The notes below the pieces were generated by a model. The model did not search any database. It saw nothing but the letters and a program-made list of their open reading frames with translations, and had not been told where the DNA came from. A stretch of DNA of 64,000 nt from Chondrosia reniformis (taxonomy: Eukaryota > Porifera > Demospongiae > Chondrillida > Chondrillidae). The DNA is taken from the NCBI GenBank assembly GCA_947172415.1, contig OX359198.1, forward strand, positions 217,401 through 281,400, written 5' to 3'. Position numbers and translations under genes: made by a program. Shown here in pieces: positions 11,048-14,000 of this stretch (the stretch's first letter is position 1; every line of letters starts with the position of its first letter).

Positions 11048-14000
11048 ATGAATCATTTCAAATCGTTGGTCCGCCATCTCGCCCGCCAGACTTCTTTCAG
11101 AGCAACCAACTTGTGTCGATTGCACACTATTAGAGTTCGATCATCACTCGCAATGCAATTGGAACATTTACAACAACCAGACTGCTCAATGGTAAGGAGG
11201 GACAGCTACTGCTTCACTGATACTTCTAATCTGATAACCTCCTCACATCCTTAAAAGGACATCTCCTCCTACAACTTCTCTCTCCCTCCTCTGCAGGACA
11301 CAGAATGGAAGATGCGGTACTTGCCACTGAAGCCAGTTCGTCCAGTTCCCTCTGACATAGTGATAGCTCGCAATCAGACTCCAAAGAGCATTTCAGTGTT
11401 AGCTGAAGAGATAGGGATCATGGATGATGAGGTCAGACTCCTCAATTAGACACTTGTGTGGTTCAGTAGACCACATCAGGTGTATCAAGATGTGTCTGCA
11501 TGACTTGTAGTTGGAGCTGTACGGGTCACACAAGGCTAAAGTGTCGTTGAGCATTTTGGACAGATTGGAGAATAACAAAAATGGAAACTATATTGTAGTC
11601 ACCGGCATCACCCCCACCCCCCTGGGGGAGGGTAAAAGTACTGTATTGCTTGGTCTTGCCCAATCCCTAGGGGCTCACTTGAAGAGAAACACTTTTGCTT
11701 GTGTGAGACAACCTTCTCAAGGACCAACTTTTGGTATTAAAGGTGAGGACTGAGTGTGTTCCTCTGGAGACATATCTGTGAAGCGTCTGCCCCACCCCCT
11801 GTAGGCGGGGCAGCTGGTGGTGGGTATTCACAGGTCATTCCAATGGAAGAGTTTAATCTCCACTTGACGGGAGACATTCACGCCATCACTGCTGCCAACA
11901 ATCTCCTGGGTGAGTTGGAGAGGTACTGGAATGGCTAGGAATGTGAGGATTATCTAATGTCCTCCTCCTCTCACTAGCGGCTGCTCTTGATGCAAGAATC
12001 TTCCATGAATCTACCCAGGCTGATCAAGCACTGTTCAACAGACTTGTACCAGTGAAGAATGGTACGTCTACCACTCTTTGCTGGTCTGTGTTGTGAGTGT
12101 GTCCATTCTGTACTTATAGGAGTTAGAACATTTTCTTCAATCCAACGAGAGAGATTGAAGAAGCTTGAAATCAGCAAAGTACATCCAGAAGAGTTGTCCG
12201 AAGAAGAAAAGAGCAGGTTTTGTCGTCTTGACATTGATCCCTCCACCATCACCTGGCAGAGAGTGATTGATACAAACGACAGGTACTTGAGGAAGATTAC
12301 CATAGGACAGTCGGCCACAGAGAAAGGTATCAGTAGAGAAGTGAGTCCAGCCATTCTGTTGTAGGCAGTTCTGGTAGACATGAATAATCTAAAACACCTC
12401 TTTCCTATAAGTACAGATTGAGGTATAGGAAGTATGTAGGTCTATACAGCTTTGTAGTTGAGATTGAAAACTACAAATAAAATGGCGACTGTAAACATGT
12501 GTTTGTGCAGGCCCAGTTTGACATTAGTGTCGCTAGTGAACTGATGGCTATATTGGCTCTGACCAGCTCACTGGAGGACATGAGAGAGAGGATCGGAAGG
12601 ATTGTGGTGGCAAGCAGCAGAGGTGGGCAACCAGTCACTGCTGATGATCTAGGTAGGGAAGACTGAGTGTGCTCCTCTTGTCAGCCACTCCCCTTTTAGC
12701 CATCTCCCTCCCCTCTCTCCTCTGAAGGTGTGAGCGGTGCACTGACTGTGCTGATGAAGGATGCCATCAATCCCAACCTCATGCAGACGTTGGAGGGAAC
12801 TCCAGTCTTTGTTCATGCTGGTCCATTTGCAAACATTGCACACGGCAACTCATCCATTTTGGCTGACAAAATAGCACTCAAGTTGGTAGGGGAGAACGGT
12901 TATGTGGTAACTGAGGCAGGGTTTGGAGCCGACATTGGAATGGAAAAGTTCTTCAACATCAAATGCAGATACAGTGGTACGAATGTGAATGTATGTTGCT
13001 TCATCGTTTTGATTTCAAATTTGATTATATTCTTTGTAGGTTTGATTCCCAATTGTGTTGCCATGGTAGCGACTGTGAGGGCCCTGAAGATGCACGGTGG
13101 TGGACCAACAGTGACGGCAGGTGGGTGTGTCCAAAAGTGGGCGTGTCTCCTCTGTCCAGTGTACCAGTGCTCTCCTCCCTCCAGGTCAGCCCATCCCTTC
13201 CGAGTACAGCCAGGAGAACCTGGAGCTGCTGGCTAAAGGATTTGTCAACTTGGAGAGGCACATTGGTAATGCACTCAAGTTTGGTATTCCTGTGTGTGTG
13301 GCTGTCAACAGAATGAAGTGTGACAGCGATGCCGAGGTACAGCTCCTGTGCAGACTGTCAAGAGAAGCTGGTGCATCAGAGGCGGTAGTCTCCAGCCACT
13401 GGGCTGACGGAGGTGGGTTAGAAATGTACTGACCTTATAAGGAAGAGAGGTCACTGCGATGTAATCTCCTTCAACAGGTGAAGGTGCTAGGAACTTGGCT
13501 GAGGCTGTTGTCAGAGCATGCTCTAGGTCGAGCAACTTTAGATTCCTTTATCCTCTTGAGAAGAGCATCGAGGAGAAGATGGAGATCATTGCAAAGGAGA
13601 TCTACCATGCTGATGGAATTGAGATACTTTCAGAGGCCAGAGAGAAGATAGAGAGGTACAAGCGACAAGGTAACCATGACAACACAGTAACCATAGAGAT
13701 TGTGTACTCCACCCAGTGCTCCATGTTGTATATATGTACGTTGTGACTGAAGAGTGTACTGATCTTAACTGAGTGAAGACAGTCTCCTCTGAACATGTCC
13801 ACTGCTTCTTGTAGGGTTCTCACATCTCCCCATCTGTATGGCCAAGACACACCTCTCCTTCTCCCACCTTCCTGAGCTGAAGGGAGCACCCAGCGGCTTC
13901 ACACTGCCCATCCGAGATGTGCGGGCCAGTGTGGGAGCCGGCTTCCTGTACCCCCTGGTGGGGACCATGTCCACCATGCCAGGTCTGCCCACCAGACCAT

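Follow-up and report, generated by a model that had tools for sequence, protein, structure and literature searches.

The 64,000-nucleotide stretch of Chondrosia reniformis DNA analysed here (the window) contains a gene, copy A, that derives from MTHFD1. It has no dehydrogenase/cyclohydrolase part and starts with a new N-terminus, as the initial annotation had proposed. The best explanation, which we hold tentatively and with somewhat less than even confidence, is that a truncated duplicate captured a promoter and gives a monofunctional FTHFS, with a leader that probably routes some of the product to mitochondria. The anatomy of copy A and of its junction is firm within the one assembly used, and an expressed monofunctional FTHFS is likely on the sequence. 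Positions of the features are collected in Table 1.

Table 1 Features of the window around the MTHFD1 copies
Feature	Position	Strand	Remarks
Copy A, intact 12-exon ORF, 684-aa monofunctional FTHFS	11048-14056	+	Predicted from sequence
Copy A exon 1	11048-11191	+	38 new codons (11048-11161) and 10 MTHFD1-derived codons (11162-11191)
Junction zone, start of MTHFD1 exon-3 homology	11162-11171	+	11162 with 3-nt gap; 11171 by block comparison
CpG-rich flank, read as putative captured promoter and 5' end of A	10650-11160	+	o/e about 0.8-1.3, 200-base windows
Best-scoring candidate 5' intron	10922-11089	+	Would remove ATG1; first long ORF then from Met36
Alternative candidate 5' UTR intron	10922-10995	+	Lower score; would keep ATG1
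In-frame Met36 codon	11153-11155	+	Would give 649-aa leaderless FTHFS
Copy B, MTHFD1 from exon 3 on	33535-36621	+	Without exons 1-2
Copy C, complete 14-exon MTHFD1, 937 aa	56946-61410	-	Probable parent type
MTHFD1 last-exon copies	21169-21410, 28283-28524, 48833-49074
Smaller pieces	21028-21132, 48569-48602, 48598-48687
Axonemal dynein heavy chain, best match DNAH12	1-10320	-	Divergent neighbour of A

Copy C has the complete MTHFD1 architecture. Copy A lacks the dehydrogenase exons 1-2 and retains ten codons of exon 3; its introns are GT-AG throughout, and its 12 exons contain no stop or frameshift. In copy B, homology to C starts within intron 2, at about 33285. A tblastn search of the window with the dehydrogenase part of C (E up to 0.01) matched only C itself and exon 3 of B. 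Splicing of copy A to upstream dehydrogenase exons, a potential refutation named at the outset, is therefore ruled out in cis within the window, as exons 1-2 are present only in C, on the opposite strand.

The DNAH12-like dynein gene lies head-to-head with copy A, with the CpG-rich flank between them, and seems to run on beyond the left edge of the window. Its exons (679 residues) have DNAH12 structures as their best solved relatives, among the best 60 of 84 matched PDB sequences. The 5' end of the dynein is a rough gene model that contains stops and is unreliable. The dynein gene and the fused MTHFD1 mark the source as ciliated and eukaryotic, and probably as an animal; the style of the genome suggests a sponge. 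Two nearly perfect minisatellites were noted, one with a 25-base unit (3517-3934), within a dynein intron backed by an exact spliced match, and one with a 38-base unit (7929-8300), probably within another.

Long repeated ORFs of 924-1149 codons occur in both orientations (17923-20694, 25287-28340, 29036-32440, 44499-47933 and 52969-56415). The only one scanned, at 17923-20694, gave sub-threshold Pfam matches alone, the best being DUF7630 (E 0.0045). At 28258-28526, the terminal part of the final MTHFD1 intron, together with the exon after it, is fused into the ORF at 25287-28340, which forms another gene-breaking junction. On the 5' side of copy B (33180-33535), MTHFD1 intron 2 sequence is abutted by a short ORF that includes a hydrophobic stretch and, by eye, copies the start of a minus-strand ORF near 16452; together with copy B it is possibly a fused copy, probably a dead one. 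Parts of the 500 bases that precede copy C recur further upstream of it as diverged copies (84% and 72%; 63007-63339).

Exon 1 of copy A (144 nt, 48 codons, phase 0) has an in-frame TGA (11045-11047) directly 5' of its ATG and ends in CTCAATG, followed by the donor GTAAGG. The initial annotation had this exon ending with the LQQPDCSM codons and the donor of exon 3 of C. Seven of the eight codons are indeed identical, the Leu codon being the one that differs, and the donor is the same in A, B and C; before it, exon 3 of C ends in CTTCAACAACCAGACTGCTCAATG and the counterpart in copy A in TTACAACAACCAGACTGCTCAATG. The homology is slightly longer than was claimed. By blastn, 11162-11191 matches positions 189-221 of C exon 3 (87.9% over 33 columns, with a 3-nt gap), while a whole-block comparison places the start of homology at 11171; the additional upstream part has a 1.8% chance under a simple null. 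To the left, the flank at 10331-11161 finds only 16-20 base matches elsewhere in the window, and the within-window comparison lists no repeats of at least 60 bases for 9000-11170. To the right, 11171-17151 matches 33735-39695 in the B block at 97.4% over 5995 aligned bases, reaching 3 kb beyond the gene end. Since the left flank is uncopied and the match runs 6 kb rightward, the junction marks the left edge of a block, 6 kb long or more, that was duplicated. The exon-internal swap that had been suggested thus gives way to the border of a segmental duplicate lying against CpG-rich sequence that resembles a promoter, and a swap limited to the exon is ruled out by the homologous block extending past the gene.

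The new start and the basic, acid-free leader that had been described were both found. Residues 1-38 are new and comprise 6 Arg, 1 Lys, 3 His, 4 Ser and no Asp or Glu (7 basic residues), and the first acid of copy A is E39, inside the MTHFD1-derived part. The leader resembles a mitochondrial presequence, and import is plausible, as judged on composition only. The chance figures for such a leader were computed after the fact. A Markov model of the flank yielded 4914 random ORFs, of which 441 were acid-free over 35 codons, 62 also had a net charge of at least +7, and 23 of these also matched the helical moment of the leader. The corresponding counts were 87, 8 and 7 for the window's own open ATG stretches (n=652, genes and repeats included) and 1643, 147 and 46 for a Markov model of the leader itself (n=12065). 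About 1% of random ORFs attain the charge of the leader. The helical (hydrophobic) moment of 0.47 is ordinary: a proportion of 0.35 of residue shuffles reach it, and three known presequences lie above it (0.56-0.76). Of 4000 simulated flanks, 3.6% had an in-frame ATG leader of 38 codons or more, and 10% had one of 20 codons or more.

Codon use in the leader is without coding-like signal. In frame, the leader scores -0.15 bits per codon, and the two remaining forward frames score -0.157 and -0.134, compared with 0.09 in the lowest-scoring segment of copy C and a median of -0.05 for shuffled open leaders; 85% of shuffles score at least as high as the leader. A Pfam scan of copy A exon 1 alone returned no family. 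Searches for relatives of the leader gave 190 pattern matches in bacterial and archaeal genome contigs and 22 in viral contigs, none of them confirmed; as these collections are bacterial, archaeal and viral, the null result says little on sister animals.

Downstream of the leader, residues 64-213 and 270-684 of copy A align with residues 3-151 and 157-559 of a solved bacterial FTHFS (E 1.3e-182), and by sequence copy A carries a full-length FTHFS catalytic domain. It lies above the cut-off of NCBIfam model NF010030 (714.3 vs 652) and below those of NF010031 (763.9 vs 800) and NF010032 (690 vs 938). The motif GEGKST is kept in A, B and C. After GEGK, A and B read S-T-V-L-L where C reads S-T-T-T-M. 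These positions were compared with the best 80 of at least 272 confirmed relatives, all with bacterial titles, found with the whole A protein as query. Among these 80 loci the third residue after GEGK, Val in A and B, is always Thr; the fourth is Thr in 70, Met in 9 and Leu in 1; and the fifth is Val in 72, Ile in 5, Met in 3 and never Leu. Human MTHFD1L, which we take to have Val at the third position, would make that residue tolerable in A and B. The change beside the P-loop leaves a serious doubt over the mitochondrial reading of copy A. At the nucleotide level, 8 of the 9 bases of codons 90-92 differ between A and C, with one more change at each of codons 87 and 89. The cluster is common to A and B (11511-11742 and 34075-34306, against 59499-59268 in C) and looks like a gene-conversion patch or a multi-base event. 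A further motif, VNRMKCD, occurs in all three copies (13185-13412, 35750-35977 and 57590-57817); at its Met position, 73 of the same best 80 bacterial loci have Phe, one has Ala and six are unmatched.

The three copies differ at 1.4-2.8% of exon sites. Copies A and B differ at 27 of 1911 exon sites and A and C at 51 of 1911; in the introns, 940 of 954 sites match between A and B (14 differences) and 913 of 942 between A and C (29 differences, 3.1%), in line with the near-identity of the later introns to MTHFD1 that had been pointed out. By NG86, dN/dS is 0.0062/0.042 for A-B and 0.0111/0.083 for A-C, and YN00 gives dS of 0.030 and 0.066, respectively. Given its great similarity to C and B, copy A is probably a young paralogue, unless gene conversion masks its age. 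Synonymous divergence is 2-3 times intron divergence among the copies, perhaps through constraint on the short introns or through gene conversion, and dating copy A by similarity thus needs caution. The proposal of a recent event stands as far as the high A-C and A-B similarity goes; it also assumes that near-identity did not come from gene conversion, which may be at work, as the clustered P-loop changes hint. Independence from vertebrate MTHFD1L fits the similarity of A to B and C, the only copies compared.

Private coding changes, counted as nucleotides in nonsynonymous and synonymous codons (expected nonsynonymous share 0.74), are 3:9 in A (P 0.0005 against a neutral mix), 7:8 in B (P 0.02) and 16:23 in C (P 1.4e-5). 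Set against the introns, copy A has 3 changes in about 1413-1465 nonsynonymous sites vs 7 changes in 942 intron positions (by Fisher's test, P 0.055 or 0.10 according to how sites are counted); the two rates do not differ in B (P 0.58 or 0.78) and do in C (P 0.019 or 0.029). The private changes of A suggest constraint, but the comparison with introns is not significant.

The 5' end of copy A allows more than one reading. The CpG o/e ratio is 0.76 at 10601-10800, 1.08-1.27 in windows starting at 10701-10901, 0.86 at 11001-11200 and about 0.3 within the gene itself. A separate CpG peak sits at the dynein start (10200-10500, o/e 1.2-1.4), with a dip to 0.26 in between, and the flank may be taken as a captured putative promoter. 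Downstream of 10801, ATG1 at 11048 is the first ATG if no 5' intron takes it out. The strong donor at 10922 has three partner acceptors, at 11089, 11100 and 10995; use of either of the first two would place the start of the first long ORF at Met36 (649 aa), and with 10995 or an unspliced transcript it would be at Met1 (684 aa). It is possible, if somewhat unlikely, that the leader is mainly 5' UTR and intron, with the sequence from 10922 to 11089 or 11100 spliced out and Met36 starting a leaderless, cytosolic monofunctional FTHFS. With weights trained on 21 introns (13 from C and 8 from the dynein, the latter backed by an exact spliced match), the 10922-11089 pair scores 16.8, more than any other donor-acceptor pair of the flank. 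Leave-one-out scores of the same 21 introns range from 0.2 to 25.8 (median 13.4), and 16 of them lie below that of the pair. This score is borderline as a statistic: random flanks reach it in 5.6% of 500 cases with the 21-intron training, in 6.75% of 400 with 13 introns and in 1% of 400 with a noisy dynein model, and the pyrimidine-rich, acceptor-like stretch could be chance in this sequence. The spliced form has no ATG before Met36, apart from those of nested 11- and 7-codon ORFs where transcription starts before 10789, and position -3 is G at Met36 (11153) and T at ATG1. The absence of a codon signal in the leader also agrees with a non-coding 5' end, which would, however, leave the open, basic and acid-free leader to chance. 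A start at Met36 is a serious rival to mitochondrial import. A precedent for dual initiation deciding mitochondrial targeting is human PRDX5 (PMC3759418).

Two further explanations concern copy A as a whole. That it is a non-functional duplicate, decaying within a repeat array that undergoes rearrangement, with an accidentally open leader, is rather unlikely, even though several observations point that way. The P-loop-adjacent changes are common to A and B, and the array holds further partial copies (B and the last-exon fragments near 21169, 28283 and 48833). The exon 2 donor (11432-11437) is GTCAGA in A and GTGAGA in B and C, which may weaken splicing of A. In addition, an equally long open leader arises by chance in the small share of simulated flanks given above, and the nonsynonymous rate is not significantly below that of the introns. 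Decay is opposed by the 12 uninterrupted exons, by the deficit of nonsynonymous changes among the private changes of A and by a CpG-rich flank that fits an active promoter. It is far less probable still that copy A goes back to an older mitochondrial FTHFS gene that had a targeting exon of its own, and that gene conversion from the MTHFD1 copies has recently replaced the body of this gene. The codon 87-92 cluster does resemble a patch from a more diverged source, and the leader lies in a CpG-rich stretch apart from that of the dynein. Block duplication is, however, a better fit to a shared tract that reaches 3 kb past the gene, and the codon use of the leader is not coding-like.

Under the preferred explanation, that of a truncated duplicate with a captured promoter, a rearrangement would have duplicated the 3' part of MTHFD1 together with downstream sequence. 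Its left break would have fallen in exon 3, ten codons before the exon end and near the start of the FTHFS domain, and the block would have been joined to the CpG-rich region beside the DNAH12-like gene. The join itself is visible in the sequence; the promoter role is inferred. As the junction is in frame with an ATG, copy A can be transcribed and translated, and its product would be a monofunctional formate-tetrahydrofolate ligase that begins with 38 new residues. Through the basic, acid-free leader, some or all of this product would probably enter mitochondria and there convert 10-formyl-THF and formate into each other, the reaction of vertebrate MTHFD1L. The weak first start combined with the better Met36 start could yield a cytosolic form, additionally or instead, and so could a 5' intron deleting the first start. 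Several observations count against this explanation: the codon use and ordinary moment of the leader, the top-scoring intron that deletes ATG1, the V-L-L residues in A and B, the altered exon 2 donor and the nonsynonymous rate relative to introns. Copy B and the last-exon fragments, moreover, are other breaks in the array that cut the gene without evident product. A stronger version, rather unlikely in our estimate, is that one duplication break in a non-vertebrate made a promoter-driven, dual-localised monofunctional FTHFS (mitochondrial from Met1, cytosolic from Met36). This would be a convergent and very young functional counterpart of MTHFD1L, with the dehydrogenase domain amputated and not decayed.

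Comparable genes are known from other lineages. A fused MTHFD1 gene is described as characteristic of opisthokonts; metazoans other than vertebrates have MTHFD1 and MTHFD2 and lack MTHFD1L, and yeast MIS1 and vertebrate MTHFD1L arose from separate duplications (PMC11064299). The main text of that article contains no occurrence of sponge, Amphimedon, Porifera or Cnidaria. Vertebrate MTHFD1L is, like copy A, derived from MTHFD1, and has FTHFS activity only and a mitochondrial location, both of which are only possible for A. It retains a diverged dehydrogenase region (PMC11064299), whereas copy A has nothing of this region except the ten exon-3 codons. Copy A is also nearly identical to the MTHFD1 of its own genome, while MTHFD1L is described as vertebrate-specific (PMC11064299). 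Yeast MIS1 is a duplicate of MTHFD1 that independently moved to mitochondria (PMC11064299), a relocation that is only possible for A; unlike A, MIS1 keeps all three activities. The stand-alone FTHFS of bacteria and non-opisthokonts consists, as in copy A, of a complete FTHFS domain alone. Copy A differs by its MTHFD1 exon 3 remnant and MTHFD1 introns, and is hence a product of secondary fission and no ancestral stand-alone gene. Among the titles listed in searches of open-licence literature, none dealt with a monofunctional mitochondrial FTHFS from a sponge or any other invertebrate.

Relocalisation is regarded as an important mechanism for retaining duplicates, and a duplicate with a changed N-terminal signal is a described route of retention, termed neolocalisation (PMC2790464). 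In copy A, the change would stem from a duplication breakpoint and promoter capture, and the relocation is putative. Work on randomly generated peptides acting in mitochondrial targeting is cited in PMC4585086. If the leader works, the birth of a mitochondrial enzyme would have been caught early, with the full-length MTHFD1, a truncated sister copy and the breakpoint in one window. If true, one DNA break would suffice for a mitochondrial monofunctional ligase outside the vertebrates, and how a presequence arises from DNA that seems non-coding could be tested directly.
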